Made by a program: the position numbers and the translations under genes. From assembly GCF_000347635.1 (NCBI RefSeq), contig NC_020514.1, positions 3,534,001-3,598,000 on the forward strand: a stretch of 64,000 bases of DNA, written 5' to 3'. The notes under the pieces were generated by a model that saw only the letters and a list, made by a program, of their open reading frames with translations, ran no database searches and was not told the DNA's origin. Source of the DNA: Paraglaciecola psychrophila 170. GTDB taxonomy: Bacteria; Pseudomonadota; Gammaproteobacteria; Enterobacterales; Alteromonadaceae. Positions 40,459 to 64,000 of the stretch are shown piece by piece (within the stretch, counting starts at the first letter, position 1; every line of letters starts with the position of its first letter).

Positions 40459-40532
40459 AAACATTAGAGGGTTTAAATCCCGTCTCGGCTAGTACATAAT
40501 GCACGCGCTTATCGCTAAGCACTGAACTCGTA

Positions 40533-40607
40533 GTCCCCGTAGTTTAATGGATAAAACAAGGCCCTCCTAAGGCTTAGATCTTGGTTCGATTCCAGGTGGG
40601 GATACCA
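40533..40607 (+). tRNA. tRNA-Arg (anticodon CCT)
   Basis: A 75-base cloverleaf: acceptor GTCCCCG pairs with TGGGGAT (two G-T pairs), D-arm AGTTTAATGGATAAAAC, anticodon loop CTCCTAA with anticodon CCT at 40566-40568, T-arm TTGGTTCGATTCCAG, and encoded CCA at 40605-40607. It is followed 220 bases later by a P4-type integrase gene, so its 3' end is very likely the attachment site of the island to the right. Confidence 0.95.
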
Positions 40608-40665
40608 TTCAGTCATATCAGCATATACCCTCGTTAACCTAAAACCATTCTAGACCAATGAAAAT

Positions 40666-40682: not shown

Positions 40683-40826
40683 AATCTGAACACCTCACTT
40701 TAACCAAGATTACTCAAAATACCCTAAAATTACTCCCTGTTGTTGCACATGTGTTGCACAGAACATTTGAAAGTATGCTTTAATATCAGTATCTTAATAA
40801 AACATAACCGTTTTGGTGTTGCACAG

Positions 40827-42326: not shown

Positions 42327-43187
42327 TTAATGATGCTGTTCAGAATTAGTTTTATTTTCAATTCCAGCTTTTGCGAACTGAAGAATGTTATCCATGTCTG
42401 CAAATTGGTCAACCTTAACCCCAAGCTGCTTAATTTCACCCACCACGTCATCGTAGACTTGGATCATATCAGTCTTATCGTTAGCTGGGCGTTCAACCGT
42501 AAACAAGGCTCTTTCTTTAAGTACAACACGCTTTTCAATCAATTTCTCTACACGTCTTAACCAGTGAACAGCGTGTTCATATGCTTTCAACGGTGTTTTT
42601 TGTTCAAAGGCCAATGGTTTGATAACTCTATATCCTTGAGCTCCTTTGTGAACTAATGGCATAGGTATATCTAACACTCCTGCCATTAAATTCTGCTGAG
42701 TAAACTTTAGTTGTAATTCTTTAACAAAAGTTTGTCTCAATACTTTAACCATTTGCTGTTCGCGGTATTCATCATTAACAAAATCACGCACCACAAAACG
42801 CTGATAAAGTTTATCAAGCTCTACTAAATCGGTTTCCCCCATCATGCGGCCAATATTGCCAAAATGCAGAACAGACTCTCTATGGCGAGTAACTTCAGTA
42901 AAGTATTCAACTAACTCTTTACCGCGTATTCCATTGTTAATGCAATAATGTTGGATTCTATCTAATTCTGCAGTAAAAGTTTCGATGGCATTTTTATACA
43001 GTTGCCCATCTAAATCGTCGAAAAACTTAGTAACACGGCCAAAACGTTTAGGTGCAAGTTTAAATAAAAACTTTCCGGTCTTAGGCGCAATCAGCACTAC
43101 ACCTACGTTGGCAAACTCTCTGGTTTCAATAAAGGGCATAAAGCGCACTACTGCGTATTGGTAAACAGCGTTAAAAGTGTTGTTCAT
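42327..43187 (-). CDS. DUF3037 domain protein
   Basis: 286 residues from the ATG at 43187, which has GGAGGG seven bases upstream. The N-terminal YQYAVVRFMPFIETREFANV with GVVLIAP is the DUF3037 pattern. Its start overlaps the HipA-like gene by 4 bases; these two families are often found together in this order. Function unknown. Confidence 0.8.
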   Translation of the reverse strand: MNNTFNAVYQYAVVRFMPFIETREFANVGVVLIAPKTGKFLFKLAPKRFGRVTKFFDDLDGQLYKNAIETFTAELDRIQHYCINNGIRGKELVEYFTEVTRHRESVLHFGNIGRMMGETDLVELDKLYQRFVVRDFVNDEYREQQMVKVLRQTFVKELQLKFTQQNLMAGVLDIPMPLVHKGAQGYRVIKPLAFEQKTPLKAYEHAVHWLRRVEKLIEKRVVLKERALFTVERPANDKTDMIQVYDDVVGEIKQLGVKVDQFADMDNILQFAKAGIENKTNSEQHH

Positions 43188-43915
43188 TGTAGTGCCCTCC
43201 AGAAGTCGTCGTGATTGTATGCGCCTAATACTACTCTTATCCGATCTATTTCGCCAAGTGCATCTGGTATCTCTTGTAACCATTCATCAGGAATAGTGGC
43301 AATAATTGCATCCAAGCCATCGAGTGCATTGGTAAATTTATCTACATACATTTGTTTTTCGAACATAGGTTCAAACATGTCAGTTTGGCCACGAAACAAA
43401 AAACTCGATACGTGTAGTTTTTTATGTTCTTCAATATTAAAGTCTTGCTCAAATGCTAAATTATGGTCGAAAACCACAAGATTATTTGAGGCTAAATTGA
43501 AGTATAGATTTGGATTCCCTCCAGCTTCAGTCAGAGTTCTATCGCCATTTTGAATCCAGTTATCAAACATAAACAAGTCAGTTAAAATTTGTTTATCTGC
43601 TCTTCGCAATAAATTGACGTTAACTTCCTGTAAATCAGGTTGCAAACGAGAAGCAAAAGCAACGCCAGAACCAAGCCCAACCAATAAATCGATGTCATAC
43701 TCAACCAAAGATTCATCGACGTAAACCAGTGCACAATCTGGGATGGCCAAACCATATCGCTGCCCTAAATTGGCCGCAATCCATTCATACAAACAACCTT
43801 TAAACGTAGCATTCAAACGCTTAACTACATATTCATTATTATCATCACCCAAACAAAGCCAAGGCTCAGTTTTGCCCTGTGTCATTTTTTGCTTTATTTC
43901 GATGATGTTTATCAT
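43184..43915 (-). CDS. HipA-like kinase family protein
   Basis: 243 residues, much shorter than HipA (about 440). It has the C-terminal kinase-like elements: ATP-site lysine region NNEYVVKRLNATFKG, catalytic loop FDNWIQNGDRT with GGNPNLYF, and LVVFDHNLAF for metal binding. HipA proteins phosphorylate a translation component; no HipB-type antitoxin is adjacent, and the partner is DUF3037. Possible defence or stress module; function inferred only. Confidence 0.7.
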   Translation of the reverse strand: MINIIEIKQKMTQGKTEPWLCLGDDNNEYVVKRLNATFKGCLYEWIAANLGQRYGLAIPDCALVYVDESLVEYDIDLLVGLGSGVAFASRLQPDLQEVNVNLLRRADKQILTDLFMFDNWIQNGDRTLTEAGGNPNLYFNLASNNLVVFDHNLAFEQDFNIEEHKKLHVSSFLFRGQTDMFEPMFEKQMYVDKFTNALDGLDAIIATIPDEWLQEIPDALGEIDRIRVVLGAYNHDDFWRALQ

Positions 43916-44067
43916 GCCTTATATATTCCTTAGTACAATTTAAACGTTAGCAATTTACAAAATGATTGCTCGTTTCATTGCTGTCCTATTCATTTGCCTG
44001 ATGTTTGCAATCCCATCAAATTAATATGAGTGTCTTAGTCATTCATCAATAATGAACACCTTATATA

Positions 44068-47000
44068 TCATTGACTCATCACTAAAAAGTCATTAATTAC
44101 CATGAATTCAGTTGTCTCTTTTAGTGCTGGGCTCACAGTTCCAAACTTATTCATTAGATTTCCCAAGAGGTCATTATTCCATTTGTTTTGATTACTAAAT
44201 ATTTTAAACAGCAACTGAAAAGCTTCTTCTGGATACTTTTCAATTACATCGGAATTATTAAACTGGTCTAACACTAGGTACATATCATCAATTGAGCGTA
44301 GCATTGGTGTAACAGTTTTTAGTGCCTCAGGGAAAGTATCGTCTAACTGAAGTAGAAGCAGAGTAAAATGTTGTGCAATTTCTTGTGTTAAATAGCTCCC
44401 TCCCTTAGGCCACGCTTTACGAATTAAAGGGTTTATCCTATTCAACCAATAATTATCACGCCCTTCTGACTCATAAGAAACAGAACTCTCCATAAAACCT
44501 ACAGCATAAGCAAGACCTTCGTTACCCATTGAACGAAATGCCTGTTGAATTTCTTTATTTGTATATAAGTCTTTGTATTGAAGGCAGGCTAATGTAAACA
44601 AACTTACTAATTGCTCTAAATTCCTCCCCGTAAGGCTTTTGGCTTCTAACGCTTGAAGCATGGGCTCCTTCAAATCTATTGCCAAGTCGGCAGACAACCG
44701 AGGATTCCATAAATAACCTTGCCAAAAATATTTTGCATCATCAGATGTATCAAAATTTAATAACGTAATCATTTTGGTTTGAGTCCATTCCGGCTCAACT
44801 GAATAAAAATACATTAGTCGTGAAAACAAAATCACTCGCCCTAACGTCAGTAAATCACTATCTAATAACTGATCTAGTAATTCAAAAGGTTGGGGCCTTG
44901 GCAATTCATCCTGTGATTCAAGTTTATATAGATTTAGTCGATCTAAAATGGCTTCAGTCATTATTCCAACAGGATCATTGATAGCCCTATCTATCGCATC
45001 GAAATCTTCTCCAGTTTCTAGTTCAGAATTCCCGCTCAATTCAAATAACCGTGATGCGATATTCCAAAGGTGAGCTTCATCTATACTTTGGGGAGCCACT
45101 TTTGTTCCGGCTTTTCTTGCCCACCATGCGACTGCCCATGCTTCTTCTCTGAAGAATTCATCCGGTAATTTTGCAACCATTGGAGCTACTGTAGACCAGG
45201 TATTTTCTTCATGCTCTGCTATGCCGGTTAATCCAGCACTCCATGATTTGTGATGCCAATCATCATGAGCAAACATATAGGCTAGTGTTTCAATAACATC
45301 GTTTGGCTGAGCCTTTCCAGCATAACGAAACACATCGTTTCGACCTTCATTAAATTTAGTGTTTTTTTCAGTAAGCAGCGCTACGCGCTTAGGTAATGGT
45401 AGTGAAAAGAGTGATTCGGATGTAATGTCAGTATCATTCCCGACACTAGTAGAATGCCAATGAGTAAACTCATCACGATCACCTTCACTTAGACTCCACA
45501 TAGGGTACTGCAGTGAAAGCTTTTTATACAAAACCTGAGCTTCGCCAAATAATTCACGATCAAAAGTTTGTAATTTTGCCAACATCACCCAACGTTCTCG
45601 GTTTAACCTTGTGTGAAATTCTTCATCACTTATGTCTGTGACATACTGTAGTCTAGGGGGGCCATTTACAATAAAGTTAAGCAGAATTTCAGCTTTATTC
45701 TGACTGGCCTGCGGCCATGCTTTATTTAGTAACCTGTAAACCTCTCTTGTCATACCACTAGACCAAAGCCACCATCCATCATCTTCCAACAAATAATCGA
45801 TAGTTTCGTCTGCGGGTATTACATCGTTATAGGTATAAGCATTTAAGATAAGACGTCGAAATATTGGAAACCGATAGCCATTCCAAATTTCTAGAATCAA
45901 TCTAGCTTTAGATTCATTCGATTGAAATAACGCTCTCCATAAGTCTCGACATAATTCGACCAAAATCGGAAATGATTTATAATTACTATTTTGTGGATGA
46001 GGTTGAATTGAAATAATATCCCAATGAGAGCGATCCTGTTTTGCATTAGCTAGCCCAACAATAGCAAACAGTTCCATCGCATCTAAAAGCGCCTCGCTAG
46101 CAGGTACAAGCGCATCCGTATAGTCTTTGGGATAATTATCAGATTTTGTTAGCCGTTTAAATTCATGTTGGTCAATATTAAGGACTACATCTGTAGAAAA
46201 TGCTTTTCTCTGTGTATTTCCATCACGAATATCCTCCCCGCCCCAATAGTATGCTTTAGTAATCTGATAGCACGGCCTTAATAGCTTTTTAAACGTCAAA
46301 AGTGTTAAGGCATCAGGGCCATTAGCCATTTTACTGATCACTTCATAATTATTTGACTGATTTGTGCGTCCTAGATAGATATGGTCTGACGTGACTATCT
46401 TCCAAAATGACAAGAATGGCTCAATGGGAGGTTGGCTACTTAGTTTCCAATTTACCAATTCTTTGAACAAAGGGTGTAAGCCAAGACCTTGATCAATAAC
46501 CCATCTAATTAAGATTTCTTTGTCTAAATGATGAAGTAACCATTTCCAAATATTTTCTGATATTTTATTTGGCATGACTAAATTATTTCTGACTGGGTTA
46601 GTACAAATCAGATTAATTGTTTTTCTAATTTGACTAATCGAAAGTAATCCATTTTCCTGTAACAAAGGCAGCCACTCAATTGGAGCAGGTGGGTCTCTTA
46701 ACTCAGAAAAAACTTTCGCCGGATAACCACTAACACTTTCATGATTGTTATCTACCCTTTCCTTTAAGGTATCAAGCACTTGCTGGATCGATTCATCCTG
46801 ATCATAAGGCGCTCTTGGTGCTAACCTAGCTTTAGATTTAATAATACGCTGTTTGCTACTTAAGCCATCTCTCGCATGAGCAGCCCAAGCTTGTAAAGAG
46901 TTATGAAGATTAGGATGATTGGCACCACCCTTTACATAAAGTACAGGTTCAACTCCTTTCGCTTGCCATTCCTTAATCGCGTTTAGCCTTTTCTTATTTG

Positions 47001-47754
47001 TCGTATCCGCAATCACATAGGGGTCTTTGAATAATTTATTATCCTGTCTGCGGTCCGCTGCAATCGCATCTGTCATATACCTTATTACAGGATCATTAAG
47101 GCTGTACCCCACAAAAACAACAGTGAAGTTAACAAATAATTCCGTAACAAACTTACTCGCCCACCTCTCAGTTAAGTAAGCCGAACCAAAATCACCACTA
47201 GTAAAAACTAAATGTTCACCATTCGGGTCTTGTTCAACATCAATCAGACCATGAAGATGGACTACAGATGCCCACTTGTGTGATTTTGGCACTGGAAGCT
47301 TTGGAGCTGAGTCAGACCGTTTAATTGCATTACCTTCTGCTGTCAAAAAACCATGATCAACATTTGTTGTTACTAACCGATAGTTACCGGATCTAGTTTT
47401 TGATAATTGCAAAAGAGCCTTATGAGTGGCTACATTGGCGTCAGGCTTTAACGTTAGTTCATTGATAATTTCTTTACGTACTAAGTTAATACCAGTTGTA
47501 TTTCCTATTTGAGTACGAGCCTCTAATAAACCCAGAGCCCGATCATAAAACCCTGCTTTTATTGCCTGTTCTTCTATTTCATCTTTTTCTTGATGTAGAT
47601 TCTGATATACCGCTTCTACGAGGTCATTGAACCCTGCCAAGCCAGAAGGATAAGAAACTCCCGCGCCACAAAAAAAAACCAACTCATCATTTTCTTGAGC
47701 TTCAATTAATTCAAGTGGAATATCGGGTGCACCTTTTCTAGCAATAAATTTCAT
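44068..47754 (-). CDS. Large SIR2-domain protein, candidate NAD-depleting defence effector
   Basis: 1228 residues. The N-terminal 300 residues are a SIR2-like domain: VFFCGAGVSYPSGLAGFNDL (NAD-binding GAG-S), VVHLHGLID (catalytic His) and VVFVGYSLNDPVIRYM. The remaining 900 residues are helical and resemble the DUF4020-type extension seen in such proteins; no enzymatic motif is visible there. Long SIR2 proteins in bacteria are known to destroy NAD+ upon phage infection (DSR and related systems). It lies 62 bases after hsdS, same strand, probably one transcript. Defence role is inference from family and place. Confidence 0.75.
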   Translation of the reverse strand: MKFIARKGAPDIPLELIEAQENDELVFFCGAGVSYPSGLAGFNDLVEAVYQNLHQEKDEIEEQAIKAGFYDRALGLLEARTQIGNTTGINLVRKEIINELTLKPDANVATHKALLQLSKTRSGNYRLVTTNVDHGFLTAEGNAIKRSDSAPKLPVPKSHKWASVVHLHGLIDVEQDPNGEHLVFTSGDFGSAYLTERWASKFVTELFVNFTVVFVGYSLNDPVIRYMTDAIAADRRQDNKLFKDPYVIADTTNKKRLNAIKEWQAKGVEPVLYVKGGANHPNLHNSLQAWAAHARDGLSSKQRIIKSKARLAPRAPYDQDESIQQVLDTLKERVDNNHESVSGYPAKVFSELRDPPAPIEWLPLLQENGLLSISQIRKTINLICTNPVRNNLVMPNKISENIWKWLLHHLDKEILIRWVIDQGLGLHPLFKELVNWKLSSQPPIEPFLSFWKIVTSDHIYLGRTNQSNNYEVISKMANGPDALTLLTFKKLLRPCYQITKAYYWGGEDIRDGNTQRKAFSTDVVLNIDQHEFKRLTKSDNYPKDYTDALVPASEALLDAMELFAIVGLANAKQDRSHWDIISIQPHPQNSNYKSFPILVELCRDLWRALFQSNESKARLILEIWNGYRFPIFRRLILNAYTYNDVIPADETIDYLLEDDGWWLWSSGMTREVYRLLNKAWPQASQNKAEILLNFIVNGPPRLQYVTDISDEEFHTRLNRERWVMLAKLQTFDRELFGEAQVLYKKLSLQYPMWSLSEGDRDEFTHWHSTSVGNDTDITSESLFSLPLPKRVALLTEKNTKFNEGRNDVFRYAGKAQPNDVIETLAYMFAHDDWHHKSWSAGLTGIAEHEENTWSTVAPMVAKLPDEFFREEAWAVAWWARKAGTKVAPQSIDEAHLWNIASRLFELSGNSELETGEDFDAIDRAINDPVGIMTEAILDRLNLYKLESQDELPRPQPFELLDQLLDSDLLTLGRVILFSRLMYFYSVEPEWTQTKMITLLNFDTSDDAKYFWQGYLWNPRLSADLAIDLKEPMLQALEAKSLTGRNLEQLVSLFTLACLQYKDLYTNKEIQQAFRSMGNEGLAYAVGFMESSVSYESEGRDNYWLNRINPLIRKAWPKGGSYLTQEIAQHFTLLLLQLDDTFPEALKTVTPMLRSIDDMYLVLDQFNNSDVIEKYPEEAFQLLFKIFSNQNKWNNDLLGNLMNKFGTVSPALKETTEFMVINDFLVMSQ

Positions 47755-47816
47755 TTCAATTCCATTTTCAATTTACTAAAAAGCTTTATTTACAACAATA
47801 ATTTCAGCTATGTAAT

Positions 47817-49584
47817 TCATAATGCTTGTTCCACAATCGCATCAGTGAGGTGGAGTTGGGTGGTTTGGGCTTGGTTTAAACGTTCTTTAAGTGAGTCACA
47901 TAAGGCCATTAACTCATCGACTTTTTCGACTATTCGTTCTTGCTCTGCGAATGGCGGCAATGAGATAGGCAATGTACCAATATGCGTTTGGTTTACTGTC
48001 TTTTGTCCGGCTGTGCTTACGAATAAATTAGCAATTTTGGAACGGATTAAATCCGATGAGCCAAGTAGAAATAGGTATGGCGTAAATAGGCACTCTATGG
48101 GGAAATTCATGCGAATAAAATGATCGCAGTAGATTGTATCAAGGTCGCTTTCGCAAGTAATGAATCGACCTACGATATCAGCGCTGCCATTAACACGGAT
48201 AATCAATACATCTCCCTTCTTCAGCGAGTATCGTTTAATTGTTTCTGCCGCTATCTCAAGAGTCCTAGTGTCGTTTAACGATATTTTCCAATTTTTAATA
48301 TCGGCTAATCTCAATACTATGACGTCTTTCCCACCCTTATCACCTCGACTTGATGCACCATTTTGAAACTGTGGTAGCAAACTATTTAAATACGCCCACT
48401 CCCAGCCACTTGGCAATGCAAACGGTTTCTCTTCATCTGATATTGGCGGCAGTGGTTTTTGTTTTTTAATTTTGCCGTCTTTGATCAGTTGTTGTTTTTC
48501 GGTGGCAATGCGTTCTAGTAGTTTGGATGCGGGTTCGTCTTTGGGGTCTTGTTTGACGAGTTTGCCCATGACTGCGAGTTGCAGGATGGTTTGTTTTAGT
48601 TGGTCTATGCTGGCTTGGGTGGTGAATAACACGTCGAAGTGTTGGCTAATCGTTTGCCAGTTTTCGTTGAGTTCGTCGGCGTCTTTGGCATCGGTGAGGG
48701 TTGCCAGCAGCACTTCTACCAGTGTTTTATGGGCGTCGATACTGGATTCGGTTTGCGCTTCAAGTTGGTCACATAGGACCATTAATTCGTCGACTTTGGC
48801 GACTATGCGGTTTTGTTCTTCGAAAGGGGGTAACGGAAAAACAAACTCTTGAATACTCTTAATACCAACATTTGGCTGAGTCGTTCTATTTTCAGCTTTT
48901 CTACACTGCTCTTTGACAAAAGGTGAAATAGAAAAAATAAATTGAAAATCCGAATTAATTCTTCCATGCAATGTTTTGATTACACAACAAGAGTATGACG
49001 CTAGAAAATCAATATCCGTATCAACTAAAACGTTAGCACCTATTGTTCCATAGCGAGGGAAAATAATATCACCACGTTGAGGTTGAATTTTTTGCAGCAA
49101 GTTTTTCAAAATCTTCTCTAGAAATTTTCTTGGCATTTTCAAATTTAATAACATTATTTGGATAAAAATCCCTTGGCGAAACATAAGGATATCCAGTTAA
49201 TTCCTCACTAGGCATTTTGTGATCAATATCCCCAATTTTTAACGCTAAATTATTCCATCGTTGCCATTCCCAACCTTTTGGTAGCTCAAACGTTTTTTCT
49301 TCATCTGTAATTGGCGGCAATGGCTTTTGCTTTTTAATCTTGCCTTCTTTTATTAACCGCGTTTTTTCAACTTCTATTTTTTTAAGCAACTCACTAGCTG
49401 GTTCATCATTAGGATCTTGCGGGACTAACTTACCGCGCACCGCCAACTCTAGTATCAACTCACGGAGTTTTTTAACACCGACTAATTCCAGCTTTTTTGA
49501 ACTCCCCCGCCCTGCTGCGGATTTGGTTTTGATGGCGGAAGTCCAGATATCCAGATGCTCAGTTATTAGATTTTCAACCGACAT
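47817..49584 (-). pseudogene. hsdS: HsdS, type I specificity subunit, frameshifted
   Basis: Two overlapping frames (49584-49069 and 49184-47817) make one 589-residue HsdS if the A6 run at about 49088-49093 (minus strand) is shortened by one base: EKLAAK then runs into IQPQRGDIIFPRYGTIG. It has two target-recognition domains and a repeated conserved region (GKLVPQDPNDEPAS ... PLPPITDEEK and GKLVKQDPKDEPAS ... PLPPISDEEK). EcoEI-type HsdS has a similar length. It would direct both methylation and cleavage. As written, only a half-length first product is made. It starts one base inside the hsdM stop. Confidence 0.85.
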
Positions 49585-51050
49585 TACTTGGCACCTGTAC
49601 TTAGAGCGTCGGCAAGTATGCCTTTAAGTTGGTCGCGCAGTTGTTGAATATCCTGCTGCTGGCTTGCATATTGACCGAGTAACTCTTGTGGATCGTGATT
49701 GATTTGCTCGCCCACATGAGGGTTTTTAATGTCGAGGTTAAAGTTACGGGCAATGATGTCGTCAATGCTGACTTGCCAGGCTTGTTCGGATTCTGTTCTG
49801 CTTGCAAAACCATCTTGCTCGTTGCCCCACCATTCGTTTTCAGTTTTGAATTCTTCAAAACGCATAGGTTTAGTTTTGTTGTAGTTTTTTACGCCTTCTG
49901 GGTAAGGGTGTTCGTAAAACCAAATGTTTTTAGTGGGTGTGCCTTTGGTGAAAAACAGGATATTGGTTTTAATGCCTGTATAGGGGGCAAACACACCATT
50001 GGGTAAACGTATAATGGTGTGTAGGTTACATTCTTCCGTCAGCATTTTTTTGATTTTGGTTTTTACGCCTTCACCAAACAAGGTGCCGTCGGGCAACACC
50101 ACGGCGGCTCGTCCACCGTCTTTGAGGACTTCAATAATCAACTGCAAAAACAAATCGGCAGTTTCGCGGGTTTGCATGTCTGATGGGAAGTTTTTCTCTA
50201 TACCGTCTTCTTCGGTGCCACCAAATGGCGGGTTGGTAGCGATAACATCAAAGGTGCTGTCCCACGATGAGAGGGGCTTATTAAGGGTATTGCCGTGTTT
50301 AACCTGCACGGGTACTTCGATACCGTGCAGCATCATATTGGTGGTACATAACAAATGGGGTAGCTGCTTTTTTTCTACGCCGTGAATTTGAGTTTGCAAG
50401 GTTTGATGGTCGCTGCCGGTTTTAACGTAATTGTCTTTAATGTGGTCAACAGAACAGGCCAAAAAGCCACCTGTACCACAGGCAGGGTCAAACACTTGTT
50501 CACCTAGTTTTGGGTCGAGACGGTCAATTATAAAGCGAGTGACAGCCCGTGGAGTGTAGAATTCACCGGCGTTACCGGCGCTTTGTAAGTCTCGTAGAAT
50601 TTGTTCGTAAATATCACCGAACAAGTGGCGCTCTTTTGAATCCCCAAAGTCGACTTCGTTTAGTTTGTTGATCACCTGGCGCAGCAGTGTGCCGTTTTTC
50701 ATGTAGTTAAAGGCATCGCTAAAGGCTTCACGCACCACAAAACCACGGGGGTTTTTATCTATAGGTGCAGTGAGATTTTTGAGTTTTTCAAAAAGTTCGT
50801 CGTTCACAAAATCCAGTAATTCATCACCGGTTATGCCTTCGGCATCACTTGCCCAGTTACGCCATAAGAACTGTTCAGGGATAGGTGCACGGTAGTTATC
50901 TAACTCAAGCTCTAGGTCTTCTTCTTGGGCATCAAATATTTTTAAGAAAAGTAGCCATGACATTTGACCTAAACGCTGTGCATCGCCGTCTACACCGGCG
51001 TCTTTGCGCATAATGTCTTGAATGGATTTAATTACGGAACTGACTGACAT
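49584..51050 (-). CDS. hsdM: HsdM, type I DNA methyltransferase subunit
   Basis: 488 residues. An N-terminal HsdM_N helical domain (KDAGVDGDAQRLGQMSWLLF) is followed by the N6-adenine methyltransferase domain: FDPACGTGGFLACSVDHI for SAM binding and the catalytic ATNPPFGG. It methylates adenine at the site given by HsdS and protects host DNA. 40 bases separate it from hsdR. Length fits the type IB (EcoAI/EcoEI) group. Confidence 0.96.
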   Translation of the reverse strand: MSVSSVIKSIQDIMRKDAGVDGDAQRLGQMSWLLFLKIFDAQEEDLELELDNYRAPIPEQFLWRNWASDAEGITGDELLDFVNDELFEKLKNLTAPIDKNPRGFVVREAFSDAFNYMKNGTLLRQVINKLNEVDFGDSKERHLFGDIYEQILRDLQSAGNAGEFYTPRAVTRFIIDRLDPKLGEQVFDPACGTGGFLACSVDHIKDNYVKTGSDHQTLQTQIHGVEKKQLPHLLCTTNMMLHGIEVPVQVKHGNTLNKPLSSWDSTFDVIATNPPFGGTEEDGIEKNFPSDMQTRETADLFLQLIIEVLKDGGRAAVVLPDGTLFGEGVKTKIKKMLTEECNLHTIIRLPNGVFAPYTGIKTNILFFTKGTPTKNIWFYEHPYPEGVKNYNKTKPMRFEEFKTENEWWGNEQDGFASRTESEQAWQVSIDDIIARNFNLDIKNPHVGEQINHDPQELLGQYASQQQDIQQLRDQLKGILADALSTGAK

Positions 51051-51090
51051 CTTATAAAAGTCTCTTATTTTAGTGCTTAGGTTTTAGTGC

Positions 51091-53529
51091 TTAAGCGGAT
51101 TTTTCCGGAAAGGAGTTATATATAGCGGCTTCAAGCTCGGTAATGGCTTGGTCGTATTGTTGGCGGCCACCGAAGCCGTTCTTTAGAATTTCTTTAAACG
51201 AACCTATCTCAGTAAAGGGGTAAACCTTAATGGTTTGTAGGTTTTCTAATTCACTCACACCGGCATCAGCGTATTTTTCTAACAAACTGTTTAATACACT
51301 TTGTGCCTGCTCTGAATATTGGGTGAAGTAATTGCGTTTTTTAACGTTATTTGCCCGTTCTTTGCGAGTAAGTGCTGGCTGGTCAAATACTACGTGGCAG
51401 ATCATATCAAAAGGGTCGAGGTCTTTTCCGACTTCTTGCTCAAGTGCATCCCAGATAATGCCTTCGTCGGCCATTTCATCAATAATGCTTTGTTTACGTT
51501 CGGCTTCGTTCCACTTGCGCACAAAGGCATCGAGGGTGGCGAATTGTTTGTTGAGGGTTTTGCGGGTGTAGTCTTTAAAGGATTCGGTGACTAACTTGCC
51601 GTCGGTATCGTAATACTGCACACGCTCGGCAACCTTGAGCACTTTGACGCCTTTAACATGATACTTGTGGATTTTTTCTTCGTCTTGCCAGTCGCCCCCC
51701 ATTTCACCATCGGGTAGTGCATTGCCATCATCGAAACCAGCTTCGGGGAAATCCGTTGCATCGCTCGTTGAATCTGTTTGCTCCTCGTCTTCTTGCCCTT
51801 GCATTTTTTCATCAAAGTCAGACTCAGGATCGTTTATCTCTTCGGGTTTGCTCACAATGACTTTTTCGGGCACACCGTCGAATGCTTCATCGGCAAACAG
51901 TTCGGTGGCTTTTTTGAAATCTAATATGGTGAACCAGAGTTTGTTGTATTTGTCGTCGATACGGGTGCCACGGCCAATGATTTGTTTAAATTTGGTCATG
52001 GATTGAATAGTTTGATCGAGCACGACTAACTTGCAGGTTTTGGCATCGACGCCTGTAGACATTAACTCAGAGGTGGTGGCGATAACCGGATAGGCGCGTT
52101 TAGGGTTAATGAAGTTGTCGAGTTGCGCTTTGCCTAATTCATCATCACCGGTAATCTTCATCACGTATTTTTCGTTTTTGGCGTATTGCTCTGGGTTACA
52201 GTTAATCAGTGCTCGGCGCATACGATCTGCATGATCGATGTCGTTACAAAAGACTATGGTTTTGTCCATCTCTCCGGTGCGTTTTAGATAGTTGGTGATG
52301 GTTTCGGCGACTAACTGTGTTCGCTCATCGATGACCATAGTGCGATCAAAATCTTTTTGATTGTAGATGCGGTCGTCAATCAGATTGCCTTTTTTATCTA
52401 CCTGCCCCTTTGTGGGTCGCCAGCCTTGTAAGTCTAGGTCAATGTCTACCCGCACCACTTTGTATGGCGCTAGAAATCCGTCTTCGATGCCTTCTTTTAA
52501 CGAATACATGTAAGCGGGGTCACCAAAGTAATCAGTGTTAGAGACTTCTTCTGTTTCTTTGGGCGTGGCCGTTAAACCAATTTGGGTAGCAGCGCTGAAG
52601 TATTCGAGGATTTCACGCCACGCACTGTCATCGGCGGCACTGCCACGATGGCACTCGTCAATGATGATTAAATCGAAGAAGTCAGGGTCAACTTGCTTGT
52701 ACGCTTTTTGTGATTCTTCGGGGCCAGTTAATGCTTGATAGAGCGCAAGGTGAATTTCGTAGGCAGGGTCGACATGACGGCCTTTGATTTTGGTCATAGC
52801 TTGGCCAAAGGGCTGAAAATCATTGATACGGGTCTGATCAATTAATACGTTTCGGTCGGCTAGAAATAGAATGCGTTTTTTGGCTTTAGCCTTCCACAAA
52901 CGCCAGATAATTTGAAAGGCGGTATAGGTTTTACCGGTTCCGGTTGCCATTACTAGCAACACCCTGTTTTGGCCTTTGGATACGGCTTCTAGTGTTTTAT
53001 TAATAGCTTGTATTTGATAATAACGCGGCGCTTTACCGCTACCATCGTCATAATAATCTTGAGTAATAATGGGCAGTTGCTGTGCGGTATATCCTTTATA
53101 GGCGCAAAACTTAGCCCAAAGCTCTTGAGGGCTGGGGAATTCAGTTAGGGAGATTTCGGTTTCAAGTTGGCTTGGGTTAGTTTTATCGTGAAAAATAAAA
53201 CCGTCACCGTTGGATGCAAAAATAAAAGGTACGTCTAACAGCTTGGCATAGTCCAGACCTTGCTGAATGCCCTTGCCGACCTCATATTTGTTAGCTTTGG
53301 CTTCGACCACCGCAAGAGGCATGGATACTTTATGATAAAGCACGATATCAGCAGACTTAACCTTCATCCGTGCCGCAGCCATACCTCGCACAACTACTTT
53401 ACCATCTCGAAGTTTTACCTCCTGACGAATTTGATACATATCATCCCAGCCTGCATCCTTGATGGCAGGCATGATGAACTTGGTAATTATGTCAGTTTCG
53501 CTAAGTGCTTTTTTATTTATAGGTGGCAT
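51091..53529 (-). CDS. hsdR: HsdR, type I restriction endonuclease subunit (EcoEI-like)
   Basis: 812 residues from the ATG at 53529; the frame opens at 53571, but family members start near [13 protein letters not shown] and an AGGG lies upstream. The N-terminal nuclease domain has [20 protein letters not shown] (E-x-K). The helicase motor follows: [15 protein letters not shown] (Walker A), [15 protein letters not shown] (DECH box), [10 protein letters not shown] (motif VI). A C-terminal EcoEI-type domain completes it. It translocates and cuts unmethylated DNA. All motifs look intact, so restriction depends on whether hsdS is functional. Confidence 0.95.
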
Positions 53530-53659
53530 ACCGCTTTTCCCTGCCCTTTGCATTCTGATTATTTTCTGCAAACTTAGACTAGCATGATTGTGAATTATTT
53601 TTCACTAGGTAAAACCCAAGTTTGGGAAAAATATTCTTGAAAATTAGATGTTTAGTCAT

Positions 53660-57667: not shown

Positions 57668-57810
57668 GATGAATTAGTCTCATCCTCATTAGCTGGGATA
57701 CTACCCAATTATTAGCAATTAAGTGAACATAACTAACTTAAATTTATGTTTGGAATTAATGGGATCTGATTCTTCTACTTATGAAGGCTAAAATGAGCAA
57801 ATAAAATAGT

Positions 57811-58368
57811 CTAAATCTGCAAGTAAGAATAAAGAGTTTGCCTGCTGATTCCAAACTCTTTGGCTAATTCACTTTTGTTACTTCCAGCAACAACTCGTTC
57901 AATCAACACAGTAACCTCTTCGGCTGATAATGACCGTTTACGCCCTTTGTAAATGCCTTTTTTCTTAGCCAGCTCAATACCTTCCCTCTGGCGTTCTTTA
58001 ATCAGTGAACGCTCAAACTCAGCAAAAGCGCCCATCATGGACAGAAGCAAGTTAGACATTGGCGAATCAGCTTCATTAGTAAAAGTTAGGCCTTCTTTAA
58101 CAAAACGAATACCAATGCCTCTGTTCGTTAAACCTTTTACAATTTGGCGTAAATCATCCAAATTACGAGCAAGCCTATCCATGCTATGTACTACAACTTC
58201 ATCCCCTTCCCTGGCAAACAATAGTAATTCTTTAAGTTGTGGTCGATTGGTATCTTTGCCAGAAGCTTTATCAACAAAAACACGATCTAAAATTTCTTGG
58301 TCTAATTGCCTTTCTTCATTTTGTTCAAATGAACTGACTCGCTTATACCCAATCTTTTGACCTTTCAT
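57811..58368 (-). CDS. Serine recombinase (resolvase/invertase family)
   Basis: 185 residues, the length of TnpR/Hin-type enzymes. Catalytic Ser12 in IGYKRVSSFEQNEERQL, arginine motif VVHSMDRLARNLDDLRQIV, dimer helix LLLSMMGAFAEFERSLIKER, and a C-terminal helix-turn-helix ELAKEFGISRQTLYSYL. No transposase is near. Inverted repeats upstream (58383-58458) may be its recombination site and operator. Ribosome binding site AGGGAAG. Confidence 0.93.
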   Translation of the reverse strand: MKGQKIGYKRVSSFEQNEERQLDQEILDRVFVDKASGKDTNRPQLKELLLFAREGDEVVVHSMDRLARNLDDLRQIVKGLTNRGIGIRFVKEGLTFTNEADSPMSNLLLSMMGAFAEFERSLIKERQREGIELAKKKGIYKGRKRSLSAEEVTVLIERVVAGSNKSELAKEFGISRQTLYSYLQI

Positions 58369-58577: not shown

Positions 58578-58961
58578 ATGATTGCCATGAACAAAAAAGA
58601 AAAAGAATACCTACTTTACTATTTGGAGCAGCTAAGCCTGAAGCTAAGAAATAACATATCTGAAATGCAACAAGGACTAAATCATATTGCAGATATATCG
58701 AAAAATATCAGCCAAGAAATACCAACATCTCCAAAAGTAATGACTTTTGATCCATTGTCGACTGATAAGTTGGCCGAGAAACCACCTGAATGCTTGATTC
58801 GTATAAGGGAAGTCTGCCTTTTAGTTTCAGTAAGTCGTTCAACTATTTTCAGAATGGTGGAAGAAGGAAGTTTCCCTAAACCTTTAAACTTGGGACCTAG
58901 GTTTAAAGCCTGGCAAAAACGAACAGTGGTAGATTGGATAATTTCACACGATGACAATTAA
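58578..58961 (+). CDS. AlpA-family DNA-binding regulator
   Basis: 127 residues (an ATG at 58587 is an alternative start). The C-terminal 60 residues are an AlpA/Vis-like winged-helix: LIRIREVCLLVSVSRSTIFR then EEGSFPKPLNLGPRFKAW and VVDWI. The N-terminal half is a charged helical segment not usual in short AlpA proteins. AlpA-type proteins activate integrase genes or act as excisionases in P4-like islands, which fits the integrase at 40827. Confidence 0.85.
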   Translation: MIAMNKKEKEYLLYYLEQLSLKLRNNISEMQQGLNHIADISKNISQEIPTSPKVMTFDPLSTDKLAEKPPECLIRIREVCLLVSVSRSTIFRMVEEGSFPKPLNLGPRFKAWQKRTVVDWIISHDDN

Positions 58962-59168: not shown

Positions 59169-59267
59169 CGTTAACGCCTCGTTTAGAGGCAATAAAATAG
59201 TTGGATAAAATTAGCGACTAAGGAGCAAAAGCCAACTGTTTTATTGCCTCTAAACGACTTGTTATAT
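59169..59267 (-). repeat. attC site 1 (last of the array)
   Basis: On the minus strand it begins ATATAAC-AAGTCG and ends GAGGC-GTTAACG. The arms TTTAGAGGCAATAAAACAG and TATTTTATTGCCTCTAAA pair over about 25 bases, with CAACT/AGTTG boxes inside. It directly follows the gene at 59303-59647. The middle is nearly identical to attC site 6. The 58962-59168 stretch to its left holds nothing recognised. Confidence 0.8.
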
Positions 59268-59302
59268 GTGCCATCCTATTGCCTAGAAGTTACCAACACT
59301 CC

Positions 59303-59647
59303 CTATTTGTTTTCTTTTAGGTGTTGTTTTATTTCGCTCACTCGATGGCCTTTGAAAATTGTATGTTCTTTATATGAAATATGTTTTGTATAACGCTGAT
59401 CTTCTCTTCCCTTTTTAGTATATCTACCAAAATAATTTCTTTCGCTTTCATTACCAAAACCTAAGTGAGCGCCATAACAAAGAACTGAAATAAAGCAGAT
59501 AACACCATATATAATAACCCCAACAGTACTTACAAAGTTTGTCAGTATTGCTGTTGAAGCAAAGCCAATAAAAAAAGATAGTATATATTTTCGTCTTTGC
59601 TGTACATACTCATAACAAAGTTCAATATTGAGAGTATTTTTATTCAC
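59303..59647 (-). CDS. Integron cassette protein, small membrane protein
   Basis: 114 residues. Two hydrophobic segments (ILSFFIGFASTAILTNFV and TVGVIIYGVICFISVLCYGA) followed by a basic tail (RYTKKGREDQRYTKH). No family recognised. The gene starts 8 bases after the GTT of the preceding attC-like site and ends just before attC site 1, so it fits one cassette exactly. Confidence 0.65.
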   Translation of the reverse strand: MNKNTLNIELCYEYVQQRRKYILSFFIGFASTAILTNFVSTVGVIIYGVICFISVLCYGAHLGFGNESERNYFGRYTKKGREDQRYTKHISYKEHTIFKGHRVSEIKQHLKENK

Positions 59648-59654
59648 TTTTACA

Positions 59655-59749
59655 CCTTAACATTTATTCTGCCGTGAAATCTGAGGCCATTTAAGGCTGC
59701 GAATTTGGGGCGCGCGTTGTTTGCGCGTTCATACCATAATTTGTTTATT
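59655..59749 (-). repeat. attC-like site 2
   Basis: On the minus strand it starts near AATAAAC and ends ATGTTAAGG, with a GC-rich hairpin centre (GCGCAAACAACGCGC). It lies between the stop of the 59755-60111 gene and the start of the 59303-59647 gene. The left core is degenerate, so the call is less sure than for other sites. Confidence 0.55.
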
Positions 59750-59754
59750 ATATT

Positions 59755-60111
59755 TCACGCCCATCGAATCCAATTTACAAGTGCGTCTAGACCTGAATAA
59801 TTGAGCACACGAATACGGTAAAGATTGATCGACTTGTCTAACAGTTCCGATACACGACCTAATGCAGTGCTTGGATTTTCGGAATTGTACTCAGCAGCCA
59901 ATTTAACATCACCTGTTAAAAGTAAACGACTTGGCTTGTGAGTTACAAAAATTGAGGCTTCTTTACCTGTTAGTCCCTTCACTCTTGGGTCAAAAGCTAT
60001 CTCAGCTCCAGTATCTAGACGATATGAAATCAGGTAACGATTGTTATCCTCTGCTAGCAAGGTGGCGAAAAAACATTTGTTTAGATAATTATCAACATCT
60101 GAGCCATTCAT
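59755..60111 (-). CDS. Integron cassette protein, unknown
   Basis: 118 residues from the ATG at 60111. The frame is open to 60210, but those codons run through an attC site and into the neighbouring gene, so the internal ATG (with AAGGA upstream) is the right start. Sequence NGSDVDNYLNKCFFATLLAE and RLDTGAEIAFDPRVKGLTGK, no known motif, soluble. Confidence 0.6.
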   Translation of the reverse strand: MNGSDVDNYLNKCFFATLLAEDNNRYLISYRLDTGAEIAFDPRVKGLTGKEASIFVTHKPSRLLLTGDVKLAAEYNSENPSTALGRVSELLDKSINLYRIRVLNYSGLDALVNWIRWA

Positions 60112-60132
60112 AATTCGAAACGTCCTTGTGAA

Positions 60133-60187
60133 ATATAACGCCAAATTCAGGTGTTCCGTGGGCGTCACTTGGATTTTCTTGTTATGT
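60133..60187 (-). repeat. attC site 3 (short form)
   Basis: A 55-base site: on the minus strand ACATAAC at one end and GTTATAT at the other, with CCAAGTGACG / CACCTGAATTTGG inside. Ends are complementary apart from one base. It follows the stop of the 60191-60889 gene by 3 bases. Confidence 0.7.
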
Positions 60188-60190
60188 GAA

Positions 60191-60889
60191 TTACAGCTCG
60201 TAACATACATCAGACTCCGAGGCTGCTCGAATAGTATTCGTTGCCATTTCAGGATCCACAGAAATTAAGCGCCCATGTACCGACTTGAACCCTTGAGCCT
60301 GACCAAGAGCAGTGAATTTATAAAAGCCAGATAGGTGATACATTGATGTTTTCTTGCAGAAGAAAACCTCATCAAACCCAGATTTGGAATTTTCGACGCC
60401 ATCTAAAAATACGCTAAATTTTTCCGGTCCATAACCAAACGACGCAACATAAGAAATTTCATCTTTTGTAAGATCATACTTTGGTAGACTGATTCTATAC
60501 CCACTGTCATTTTCAATTTCCCTCAAGGTATTAGCATACATTTTTAGTCTTATGAAAATAGTATCGCCTTTTGTCGTTGACGCATTAATCAAGCTGGTAA
60601 GCTTCAATTTTTGGTCAAACTCACCCTCATATGCATATATTCTTAATATGTTGTCTGCATTTCTGTGTTCTTCACGTGTTTGAAAAGAATCGTAATTAAA
60701 TTTTGAGGAGTCTAGATGAGCATAGTGGTCTACATATGATTGATAAGTTTCAATCTTAAAAGAACCTATCAAGTCGATACTTAAGGCATAAACTAGAGAA
60801 AGTAAACCAAGCAATGTACCTACTGCAGTAAGCTTGCTCGGCAAACTCCATTTTTTCCACTGCTTATCACTCGGTACTAACATATTCAT
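60191..60889 (-). CDS. Integron cassette protein with one membrane segment
   Basis: 232 residues. One N-terminal membrane segment (LTAVGTLLGLLSLVYALSI) followed by a soluble domain with several cysteines late (FFCKKTSMYHL, SDVCYEL). No family recognised. It starts 9 bases after the end of attC site 4. Confidence 0.65.
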   Translation of the reverse strand: MNMLVPSDKQWKKWSLPSKLTAVGTLLGLLSLVYALSIDLIGSFKIETYQSYVDHYAHLDSSKFNYDSFQTREEHRNADNILRIYAYEGEFDQKLKLTSLINASTTKGDTIFIRLKMYANTLREIENDSGYRISLPKYDLTKDEISYVASFGYGPEKFSVFLDGVENSKSGFDEVFFCKKTSMYHLSGFYKFTALGQAQGFKSVHGRLISVDPEMATNTIRAASESDVCYEL

Positions 60890-60897
60890 CTCGATTC

Positions 60898-60991
60898 ACA
60901 TAACGGCCCAATAACAGGCTAAGTAATGGTTGGCTAAAGTTTTGTAACGAAACGTAGCCAACTGTTACGTGACCTTGTTAATTTGTTAGGT
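60898..60991 (-). repeat. attC site 4
   Basis: On the minus strand ACCTAAC at one end and GTTATGT at the other, matching the RYYYAAC/GTTRRRY pattern. Inner boxes CAGTTGGCTACG and TAGCCAACCATT pair. 94 bases. It follows the DUF2026-like gene by 7 bases. Confidence 0.85.
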
Positions 60992-60998
60992 GAATTAT

Positions 60999-61613
60999 TT
61001 ACCAAGCTCCTATTACGCTATTTCCTTGTAAAGCAATAGAGTTTAGCTGCCCTTTTCCATCCTTAATTTGAATTGCACTGTTCATTTTCTTAGGAGGCTT
61101 TTTGTACCATTGACTACAAATATCTGCTAAATCAGAATACGCAAGACTAGAGGCTAAATATTCCATTCTATTCTCTAGGACTTCAGGGTTTGCATCAAAA
61201 TAGAAATCACCTTCTTTAGTGAGATGATTTAGTGATTCAGCCATTTCAGATATCGGTTTCTGCATCATTTTGGCTTTTAGAGGAACTTTACCTGTTTTAA
61301 TATCAGAAAAAGCTGGTGCCATGAAATCAATTAACCAGCCATCTACAACTACCCAACAGTGGAAAGCATCTATATCTGATGAGAAATTATCACCATCTAA
61401 TTTTGCAAAGGATAAAACGTCGTTATTGCCACCCATATGATAGAAACACATACCAGCAAGGGGCTGAGCATCCATTTTATAATGTTCTCGTAGAATATGT
61501 GCACCATAAAAGCTAAAAAATGTACATGCAACAGTAGGGTCAGCATTTTCATTTTTTACGATGCTGTTAATTGTTTTATAAATTCTTTCGTAATCCTTCA
61601 GCTTAATCTTCAT
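60999..61613 (-). CDS. Integron cassette protein, DUF2026-like
   Basis: 204 residues. KLKDYERIYKTINSIVKNEN, then DPTVACTFFSFYGAHIL and DAFHCWVVVDGWLIDFMAP, are the pattern of DUF2026 proteins. A cysteine in the first block and His and Asp in the second resemble the Cys-His-Asp order of transglutaminase or papain-like folds; this is inference, as no activity is known. Soluble. Confidence 0.7.
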   Translation of the reverse strand: MKIKLKDYERIYKTINSIVKNENADPTVACTFFSFYGAHILREHYKMDAQPLAGMCFYHMGGNNDVLSFAKLDGDNFSSDIDAFHCWVVVDGWLIDFMAPAFSDIKTGKVPLKAKMMQKPISEMAESLNHLTKEGDFYFDANPEVLENRMEYLASSLAYSDLADICSQWYKKPPKKMNSAIQIKDGKGQLNSIALQGNSVIGAW

Positions 61614-61628
61614 CTAAACTCTCGATTC

Positions 61629-61725
61629 ACCTAACGAGGCTGTAGAATTTCTCTTTTAGAAAAAACAGTCTCAAAAATTATTAAAAATTAAGCCTCAAAA
61701 CGCGTTCCTACGTGAAATCTGAGGC
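61629..61725 (-). repeat. Partial attC-like site 5
   Basis: The right core is clear on the minus strand (CCTC-GTTAGGT, ending at 61629), just before the DUF2026-like gene. The left core is not. It shares the string GCCTCAGATTTCACG with attC-like site 2. Together with attC site 6 it frames about 170 bases with no gene. Confidence 0.45.
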
Positions 61726-61808
61726 AATATCCTACTAGAAAAAGATTTTTACAGTCTCTCTGAACATAAATTTCAATCGCCATTTTCCACTTTGGAGAAA
61801 TTTTAAAG

Positions 61809-61903
61809 CCTCAACGCCTCGTTAAGAAGCAAAAAAGTGTTGGCTAAAATTAGCGATGAAGGAGCAAAAGCCAACTGTTTTTGTCCTTTTGAACGACTTA
61901 GAT
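61809..61903 (-). repeat. attC site 6
   Basis: On the minus strand ATCTAAG-TCG ... GGC-GTTGAGG, with inner AGTTGGC and GCCAACA boxes. It begins immediately after the stop codon of the 61904-62620 gene. Its centre (TTAGCGATGAAGGAGCAAAA on plus) nearly matches attC site 1. Confidence 0.8.
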
Positions 61904-62620
61904 TTACATTACACACCTACACCAAACCAACTGGGCTTCTGACAGCAAGCTAGTATTAGTGTTTAAGTAATTAGTACTGGTATCAATTATTCTTACAGCC
62001 TTAGTTTTCGTCTTATCATATGAGATTCTAGTTAACCTAGAAAATTGACCAGCGTTAATCCATAGGTCATCGTACGATTTCACACTATCTTCATAGAAAA
62101 AGCAAAATTTCAATTTTCTCCTTTTCTTATAGCTTTGACTTGGTAAGAAATTTAACAGTGTTACGTATACATATGGTAAATATTGCGGTTTTAAATTGGC
62201 ATAGCTGTATACATTTAGTCGATTGGCTTCTTTGAGCAGCTTTAAAAATTCCTTTAAGTCTAAAAAGGGAACTATATCTTTTGTTCTAGCCCAAAGCTTA
62301 TCCATATTCAAATCAGCAAAGTTTCGATTTTGTTCGACTGTTTGAGGATCTGGTCTAGTTGGTGTAAGTCCACGATATGGGCGTGCTGCGGGATCTTTTG
62401 TAGGGCAAAATTGGCTATCGTTATGATAAAAATGTGCGTTAGCTTTTGTATGACCCGCTTTTACTTTCATGTCTCTATTGCAAACTGGACACTGAGTACT
62501 AGGTGAAAGATTCATGTCTTGGAAGCCAAGCTGAGTAGCTAACTTCTTGAATTCCGAACAATCTATCAATTGATTTTTATAGGTTGGATTAGAGTGCTGT
62601 GGGTGTAATGCTTTATGCAA
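61904..62620 (-). CDS. Integron cassette protein with zinc-binding motif
   Basis: 238 residues from a TTG with a strong ribosome binding site (AGGAG, seven bases away), 16 bases from the end of attC site 7. The N-terminal part has CPVCNRDMKVKAGHTKANAH, with FYHNDSQFCP after it, a likely zinc site. The remainder is helical and basic. No family recognised. Confidence 0.65.
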   Translation of the reverse strand: MHKALHPQHSNPTYKNQLIDCSEFKKLATQLGFQDMNLSPSTQCPVCNRDMKVKAGHTKANAHFYHNDSQFCPTKDPAARPYRGLTPTRPDPQTVEQNRNFADLNMDKLWARTKDIVPFLDLKEFLKLLKEANRLNVYSYANLKPQYLPYVYVTLLNFLPSQSYKKRRKLKFCFFYEDSVKSYDDLWINAGQFSRLTRISYDKTKTKAVRIIDTSTNYLNTNTSLLSEAQLVWCRCVM

Positions 62621-62636
62621 CTTTATACTCCTGTAA

Positions 62637-62737
62637 ATCTAACGCCCGCTTAAGCGAAACAAAAATGGTTGGCTATAATGTGAAGCCGAGCGAAACGTAG
62701 CCAACTGTTTTTGTTCCGTTTAAAGCGCTTATTAGGC
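62637..62737 (-). repeat. attC site 7
   Basis: On the minus strand GCCTAAT-AAGCG ... GGGC-GTTAGAT, with ACAGTTGGCTACG and ATAGCCAACCAT pairing and outer arms GCTTTAAACGGAACAAAAA / TTTTTGTTTCGCTTAAGC. The clearest attC in the array, 101 bases. Confidence 0.9.
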
Positions 62738-62745
62738 CTTTAAGT

Positions 62746-63660
62746 TCAAACTTTCCGTATACCCAACCCACTAAGATCTTCACTTTCAACGACTTCGAAA
62801 TATTCTACGTCATTTTGTATAACCTTATTGATGAGGATCTTATAAAAGTCTCTTCGCTCATTGCTCATTCTCATGCCAAAAACTACTTGGCTCAATATTC
62901 CGGGGAAATCAAATAACCCATGACTTTCTTCAACATAGCGCCATTCCTTTTCGTATTCCCATGCAGGTGTTTTAGTGCTTATTGTAGATCTAAATACATC
63001 ATCTTCGAACGATACCCTTTGAACATTTTGTACCCCGCTACCTGGAGCCATAATTTGTACTTCATTCTTAATGCCAGCCTTGAATGTAGGCTTCTCTCTG
63101 TTGTATGTAGCAGGCAAACAATGTCTAGGGTTTGCTAATTTGCAGTCGTTAGACCAACTAAAACCAAACGCTACACCTTCATGGTTAGCACCATAATGCG
63201 CCCACATTAACTCATTAGCGGAAGTCCCACTAAGACTAAAGATCCCTACTGAAGATAGACGCTTTCGCATATCCCTAAATATATTCTCAGGATTAGACAA
63301 CCGCATACCATGATCTGAATATAAAGACCTCATCGCTTTTACTTTCCTGCTATGAGTCAACTTTTTGAAGCGCTTTAACCATTGTTTAGTTTCTCGCTCA
63401 CTCAACGAAAAAAGTCGTTTAGGTGGCTCAAAAAATGGTCGTTGAGCCACAAGGCCCATCAATTGCCCCTGTTCCATTTCACGGATTGTTTTAGCTTCCC
63501 AAACTGGGGGGATCTCTCCTATACGACATTCTAGAGGATCATTCAGCTGAGAAGGTGATGATAGCCAAATTTTCTGATTTCTTATGATATCTTGAGTACG
63601 TTCCGAGTCATCTCTGTACTTAAAGAGTACCTTAGGTTTTTCTTGTTCATTTATTTTCAT
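62746..63660 (-). CDS. Integron cassette protein, DUF2971 family
   Basis: 304 residues. VLFKYRDDSERTQDIIRNQK, WLSSPSQLNDPLECR, IFSLSGTSANELMWAHYGAN with HEGVAFGF, and WEYEKEWRYVEE are the DUF2971 landmarks. Function unknown; the family occurs in mobile and defence regions. It ends 8 bases before attC site 7. Confidence 0.85.
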   Translation of the reverse strand: MKINEQEKPKVLFKYRDDSERTQDIIRNQKIWLSSPSQLNDPLECRIGEIPPVWEAKTIREMEQGQLMGLVAQRPFFEPPKRLFSLSERETKQWLKRFKKLTHSRKVKAMRSLYSDHGMRLSNPENIFRDMRKRLSSVGIFSLSGTSANELMWAHYGANHEGVAFGFSWSNDCKLANPRHCLPATYNREKPTFKAGIKNEVQIMAPGSGVQNVQRVSFEDDVFRSTISTKTPAWEYEKEWRYVEESHGLFDFPGILSQVVFGMRMSNERRDFYKILINKVIQNDVEYFEVVESEDLSGLGIRKV

Positions 63661-63708
63661 TTATAAACTTCATCTATTGATAATTTACGCATCGATTCTG
63701 GCACTGAG

Positions 63709-63769
63709 GCCTAACGCTTCTAAGTACAGGCGCGCGCTTTTTGCGCGTCCGTGTGGCTTATTGATTAGC
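63709..63769 (-). repeat. attC site 8
   Basis: A 61-base site: on the minus strand GCTAATC ... GAAGC-GTTAGGC with a GC-rich centre (ACGCGCAAAAAGCGCGC). It precedes the DUF2971 gene by about 50 bases. To its right (63770-64000) one minus-strand frame runs in from beyond the window edge and ends near 63927, too short to judge. Confidence 0.7.
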
Positions 63770-64000
63770 TGCCACATTGCGGGCTGCTGTTTGAATTGAA
63801 TGATGAACTAACAAACTGTGACTGCCTTGTTTGAATTGTGTAACTGCAATTTCCGTTGCCTTAACTTTGTCAGTGTTTGATGATTAATATTGCCAGAACT
63901 TACTAGTTACGTGAATCTTTTTTACCGATTGTAATTAGCTAAAAAGCTAACCGCATTGCACACCACTTTAGGTAGCCCTCTGTAAATACGCTTTAGAATG

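Follow-up and report, generated by a model that had tools for sequence, protein, structure and literature searches.

Sedentary chromosomal integrons, such as that of Vibrio, have attC sites similar in style to those of the cassette array described here, which lies in a stretch of 64,000 nucleotides (the window) from the genome of Paraglaciecola psychrophila 170. Arrays without their own integrase are called clusters of attC sites lacking integron integrases (CALIN), a term that reportedly comes from Cury et al. 2016. IntegronFinder 2.0 by default calls a CALIN from at least two attC sites (PMC9024848), and several attC sites with no nearby integrase are common to the clusters described (PMC11389934, PMC9024848). 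In Alteromonas, which belongs to the same family as our host (Alteromonadaceae), three attC regions were found, of which two lacked intI, and the sites were reported as expressed (PMC4119200). CALINs away from the integron platform were described for Xanthomonas and Shewanella, together with lineage-specific loss of intI in Xanthomonas and single attC sites in Shewanella (PMC12444791, PMC9229058).

The array studied here is a CALIN, a kind already known: seven attC sites were found with our own models and no integron integrase lies nearby. In contrast to the sedentary chromosomal integron of Vibrio, it has neither intI nor attI and counts seven sites only. It differs from CALINs in general (PMC11389934, PMC9024848) in being bounded within a tRNA island for which relatives have empty sites, whereas the Alteromonas attC regions are described as genome regions rather than as tRNA-island cargo (PMC4119200). 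We regard it as highly probable that the array, with six protein-coding cassettes and one cassette without an open reading frame (ORF), is a CALIN carried as cargo of an island of about 28 kb in the tRNA-Arg(CCT) gene of Paraglaciecola.

The attC array in a tRNA-Arg island

The window corresponds to positions 3534001-3598000 of the genome, which is a single contig of 5,413,691 bases; positions below are on the window scale unless a locus number (L) or a genome position in kb is given. The attC sites were searched with two covariance models trained on other loci of the same genome, with the sites of the window excluded. R1 was trained on 13 long attC sites and R2 on 9 shorter ones, because an alignment of all attC types for one model (A3) had no common fold. 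The stems of the 13 long training sites covary, with 36 double-sided cells compared to 12.0 in shuffles (0 of 500), in a control that ignores relatedness. The training sites were chosen in part by the letters TAAC and GTTA, and the conservation of their cores is therefore not independent evidence.

An earlier note on this DNA had claimed at least seven minus-strand attC sites among six small genes, and had named covariance-model matches, with intI/attI to the right, as the support to look for and the absence of such matches as the refutation. R1 matched four sites and R2 three, all on the minus strand from 59169 to 63770, between or beside six minus-strand ORFs. The remaining three rows of R1 at E up to 10 were opposite-strand echoes of three of its four sites, and the sole further row of R2 across the 64-kb window had an E of 1.7. 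The array contains the following features.

59169..59267, minus strand: attC site 1, last of the array (R1 E 1.9e-16; fold z -7.9)
59303..59647, minus strand: cassette gene, 114 aa, no match in Pfam, PADLOC and NCBIfam
59689..59753, minus strand: attC-like site 2 with a degenerate core, R'' TAAT and R' CTT (R2 E 6.8e-5; fold z -0.54)
59755..60111, minus strand: cassette gene, 118 aa, starting at an ATG inside the cassette, no match in Pfam, PADLOC and NCBIfam
60133..60187, minus strand: attC site 3, short type (R2 E 0.0015; R1 unfiltered E 0.0031; fold z -0.30)
60191..60889, minus strand: cassette gene, 232 aa, near-orphan with a single relative besides itself
60898..60991, minus strand: attC site 4 (R1 E 3.5e-12; fold z -2.6)
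60999..61613, minus strand: cassette gene, 204 aa, DUF2026 (PF09641 E 8e-98)
61628..61770, minus strand: doubtful attC remnant, R' GTTAGGT only (no model match; fold z -0.75)
61809..61903, minus strand: attC site with a degenerate R'', TAAG (R1 E 3.7e-14; fold z -1.5)
61904..62620, minus strand: cassette gene, 238 aa, CoiA_N-like motif under the family cut-off
62637..62737, minus strand: attC site with a degenerate R'', TAAT (R1 E 1.9e-17; fold z -3.4)
62746..63660, minus strand: cassette gene, 304 aa, DUF2971, PADLOC candidate defence family PDC-S31 (PADLOC E 2e-43)
63709..63770, minus strand: attC-like site with a degenerate R'', TAAT (R2 E 7.9e-7; 50 nt with 92% identity to a site in the 583-kb array; fold z -0.65)
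63771..64000, minus strand: body of the ORF-less cassette, ending about 4 bases beyond the window, by eye like L021:11372-11608 of the 1866-kb array

As single-stranded DNA, three of the four long sites (59169, 62637 and 60898) folded clearly better than shuffles. The fold of the fourth at 61809 was weaker, with 18 of 200 shuffles equally good, and the three short sites (59689, 60133 and 63709) were not better than shuffles. The same was found for the eighth candidate at 61628-61770, which matched neither R1 nor R2. When the cores were compared by eye to RYYYAAC/GTTRRRY, which the earlier note had said they fit, the GTT of R' was kept in seven of the eight candidates. The fit was looser than claimed, with the AAC of R'' intact together with this GTT only at 59169, 60133 and 60898. 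The AAC was lost in the sites 59689, 61809, 62637 and 63709, which would fit a decay of unused sites. The likeness of several centres was borne out: 59169 and 61809 are 84% identical across their common 67 nt, and 60898 and 62637 have one exact 19-mer in common. Site 59169 is 92% identical to a site at 1867.4 kb of the same genome. A promoter-like site was not in excess in a consensus scan of L019:1000-6500 (14 found, 17.4 expected). At gathering level Rfam left the array unmatched, its sole match in the window being the tRNA. A scan for the core motifs with one mismatch and a stem was also tried and rejected; of the seven sites it recovered only 60898, which it matched on both strands, plus five rows without model support.

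The island is bordered by an exact repeat of the tRNA-Arg(CCT) 3' end (20 of 20 nt) at 40593-40612 and 68549-68568, and a tyrosine integrase adjoins the tRNA gene. GC content is no marker of the island (0.36-0.45 inside versus 0.37-0.39 to its left). The same site was compared in 21 Paraglaciecola relatives. Five of them (G011, G017, G019, G020 and G021) were empty: the gene flanking our attR on its right lies there only 0.08-0.44 kb from the tRNA. G010, G012 and G016 had DNA resembling the integrase end of the island at this tRNA, and the other 13 were without a clear state. The most similar tRNA region (96%) is that of G016. There, restriction-modification (RM) genes (91% over 4081 nt) occupy part of the stretch from the tRNA to a second repeat copy 38 kb further on, and after this copy comes the island's integrase end, with 97% over 413 nt. 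In the 60 kb of G016 DNA retrieved for this site, attC matches reached E 0.052 at best, and attC sites were also not found in our window from 40001 to 58000. Since the island DNA of G016 is without clear attC sites, the array is island cargo that is absent from related island DNA.

Several points weigh against this assignment. Between the array and attR (L019:6863-9050) lie a Rep_trans replication gene and another tyrosine integrase, and the island may be a composite of two elements in tandem; a third attachment repeat was not found within 5 mismatches. At the junction of array and island, the entry route is not marked by any repeat; nothing beyond a 14-mer borders the array. The 'empty' site of G019 has 82 nt after the tRNA that are like the left end of the island and may be a remnant. 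Finally, R1 and R2 are home-made models with rough E-values and not IntegronFinder's own model.

Integron integrases and the origin of the array

Across the whole genome, only two intI matches exceeded the family cut-off, one at 583.6 kb and one at 2340.8 kb; the array is at 3593 kb. The window gave a single match to an integron integrase, which stayed below the cut-off (E 4.8e-7) and was the island's own tyrosine integrase. In the next 10 kb to the right of the window (ORFs of L019 up to 16000) a phage-type tyrosine integrase, Rep_trans, the attR repeat and then chromosomal genes were found, and no intI. Since the integron integrases lie elsewhere in the genome, the platform that the earlier note had placed beyond 64000 was wrongly predicted, and the solitary cassette cluster it had offered otherwise is right. 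Its comparison to sedentary chromosomal integrons holds for the type of attC but not for the setting, a tRNA-integrated island without intI at the head of the array.

Both intI genes are interrupted. The gene at 583.6 kb, which adjoins an attC array at 570-583 kb, has an in-frame stop and a frame-shifting 7-nt duplication. In the gene at 2340.8 kb the frame is broken near codon 18, a 73-nt insert is present and an IS1595-type element lies just upstream. With both genes interrupted, a rearrangement of the array by its own cell is therefore improbable. Other attC arrays of the genome are at 1866-1870 and 2350-2359 kb, and lone attC matches are dispersed on the chromosome at 429.7, 815.6, 2257.9, 2494.2, 3277.5 and 4203.9 kb. 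The 7-nt tandem duplication (L020:16384-16440) is in a conserved stretch just before the spot where other intI copies carry the repeat described below.

The presence of intI was surveyed in 40 genomes at E 1e-40, including 22 of Paraglaciecola. Fourteen of these 22 had at least one full-length, stop-free match, four had only shortened ones (our genome, G003, G005 and G007) and four had none. A relative is therefore a possible source of a functional IntI. In a survey from 2008, nearly a third of the intI genes were called pseudogenes (PMC2426708).

Other origins of the array were weighed against these results. The orientation of the array would place an intI to its right, as expected if it were the distal part of a complete chromosomal integron with the platform just beyond 64000. 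The gene content of the next 10 kb and the distant positions of both above-cut-off intI genes refute this for the present assembly, and we give it practically no chance. Hardly more credible is a reading of the palindromes as ordinary intergenic repeats that happen to separate unrelated genes. Such repeats do occur in the genus, and three short sites fold like shuffles while 61809 is only weakly better, but models from other loci match all seven sites on one strand and at cassette spacing. Moreover, in other genera an attC directly follows the gene in one of three foreign DUF2026 loci (G058, E 7.8e-21), and attC matches lie 0.6 and 1.3 kb (E 0.0083 and 1.2e-11) from a DUF2971 relative broken by two stops (G071).

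It is a serious possibility, although we put it below an even chance, that an IntI of this lineage inserted the cassettes after the island had arrived, using a non-classical, attG-like site in it. The attC sites are similar to sites in other arrays of the host, as seen for 59169 and the site at 1867.4 kb; the ORF-less cassette type is common to the 1866-kb array; lone attC matches are dispersed in the genome; and clear attC sites are missing from the related island DNA of G016. On the other hand, no junction was identified as an attG core, both above-cut-off intI genes are now interrupted, and the picture would be identical if the cassettes had been acquired in an earlier host from this genus. 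In the reading that we prefer, a CALIN carried by the island, the cassettes would have been gathered by an IntI working on folded attC hairpins and later parted from that IntI. They would now not be reshuffled by an IntI of their own cell, and the R'' cores would decay. The array would move en bloc upon excision of the island by its tyrosine integrase. As far as we searched, a CALIN within a defence-bearing tRNA island with its ends and empty sites appears to be new.

Cassette products and island genes

The earlier note had called most cassette products new, which holds in part. The two smallest were without family matches, where the searches for the 118-aa gene used its 151-aa ORF form (to 60210), which would cross attC 3. 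For the 232-aa product a word-based search of 5.8 billion proteins gave one relative with 52% identity. DUF2026 and DUF2971 are known families, and the 238-aa product has 44 further relatives, with named sources that include Pseudoalteromonas, Marinobacter, Xanthomonas and Acidithiobacillus. Its AlphaFold2 model had a pLDDT of 87.8, and distant relatives were found in 7 plasmid records.

The DUF2026 product has a relative with a solved structure (2hly, E 1.7e-67). In an alignment of 36 sequences the residues C30, H85 and D96 are fully or almost fully conserved, which suggests a cysteine hydrolase or transferase. Matches to DUF2026 were found in 4 of 295 genomes of the order, our own included, and DUF2026 proteins are named in Vibrio too. 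At the two foreign loci other than that of G058 no attC was found (L121 and L123, the latter close to a contig end). DUF2971 was matched, at the limits set, in 2 of the 295 genomes, again including our own. Its distant relatives in 69 plasmid records all had less than 60% identity. The ten best-ranked open-licence PMC matches for DUF2971 with defence and phage contained no mention of DUF2971. The ORF-less cassettes of about 230 bp in two arrays of the genome are alike by eye and may carry promoters.

The island contains the following further features.

40533..40607, plus strand: tRNA-Arg(CCT), attachment gene of the island (Rfam match 40533-40604)
40593..40612, plus strand: attL repeat, identical to attR at 68549-68568 (L019:10549-10568, outside the window)
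40740..42170, plus strand: island tyrosine integrase adjoining the tRNA (PF00589 E 3.6e-27)
43184..43915, minus strand: HipA-like kinase (PF20613)
44068..47754, minus strand: Dsr1 (SIR2) defence gene (PADLOC E 6.5e-213)
47817..53571, minus strand: type I RM specificity, methylase and restriction subunits
57811..58368, minus strand: serine resolvase
58578..58961, plus strand: AlpA-like regulator

A DUF3037 gene, the second tyrosine integrase and the Rep_trans gene complete this gene content. The type I specificity gene (47817-49584) is apparently split into two overlapping frames of 455 and 171 aa, with a Methylase_S match in the longer one only. Judged from PDC-S31 in the array and from the Dsr1 and type I RM genes that the island also carries, the cargo would be partly anti-phage.

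The palindromic repeat in intI and the spread of cassettes

In ten intI loci, a palindromic repeat of about 73 nt separates the RHSF codons from the ATHLL codons. These loci belong to 7 of the 22 genus genomes, namely our own (G000), G003 (twice), G005, G007 (twice), G012, G016 and G020 (twice). The intI of Rheinheimera baltica has the same repeat at the same codon boundary. The copy of our genome is L010:1443-1515 (2340.7 kb), and the other loci are L039, L040, L041, L042, L043, L044, L077, L078, L079 and L087. The insertion point is just after the H-x-x-R motif of IntI, which requires a His and a Tyr downstream of this point. The frame through the repeat is open in the G007 copy at C11, which is open throughout and yet carries the repeat. 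It is kept but has an internal stop in R. baltica and one G003 locus, and it is shifted in G000, G005, G012, G016 and G020 C104. The remaining loci are broken at several places.

Over the 55 pairs formed by the eleven loci, the median identity of the repeat is 92%, compared to 64% in the 120-nt flanks, and the two G003 loci have a 97% identical repeat within 58% identical flanks. No clear correlation was observed between repeat identity and flank identity (rho 0.20, p 0.15). A tree of 29 intI rows (10 with and 19 without the repeat), with the insert excluded, required eight changes, seven of them forced by well-supported branches; shuffled repeat labels gave 8.5 changes on average. Independent insertions are opposed by the common near flanks of the two G007 loci, which may represent one conversion, and by the G000 locus and one G020 locus, which are one lineage. 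The changes on the tree can also be losses.

Outside intI, the compared loci contained 24 copies of the repeat, of which 22 were not within an ATG ORF of at least 150 aa. TwoAYGGAY matches adjoin some of the non-intI copies, and group II intron matches are found elsewhere in L070, L080 and L087. The intI repeat had no family match at E up to 1 in the ten loci scanned. An exact match to its junction in intI was obtained at 5 loci in a scan of genome contigs from which our own genome was possibly left out. For Xanthomonas and Shewanella, the loss of intI is described as due to frameshifts, stops, deletions or insertion sequences (PMC12444791, PMC9229058), in contrast to one repeat at one site here. 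In the open-licence PMC literature nothing was found on a palindromic repeat in intI, also under Paraglaciecola with integron. The recurrence of the repeat at one intI codon boundary thus seems to be new as far as searched.

We see an even chance that the repeat homes site-specifically, in one orientation and repeatedly, into intI of Paraglaciecola and Rheinheimera, where it would inactivate IntI or, when in frame, alter it, and so freeze the cassettes and strand arrays like the present one as cargo of other mobile elements. Its movement could involve a hairpin-reading transposase acting in trans, or it could be a reversible switch.

Taken together, the locus provides a mapped example of integron cassettes passed on to a tRNA island next to known defence genes, with island ends and empty sites defined, and carriage by an island would be a route for the spread of cassettes without an integrase of their own. 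If the site-specificity is true, the repeat would be a dedicated integron brake and would give a handle on the frequency of intI pseudogenes.

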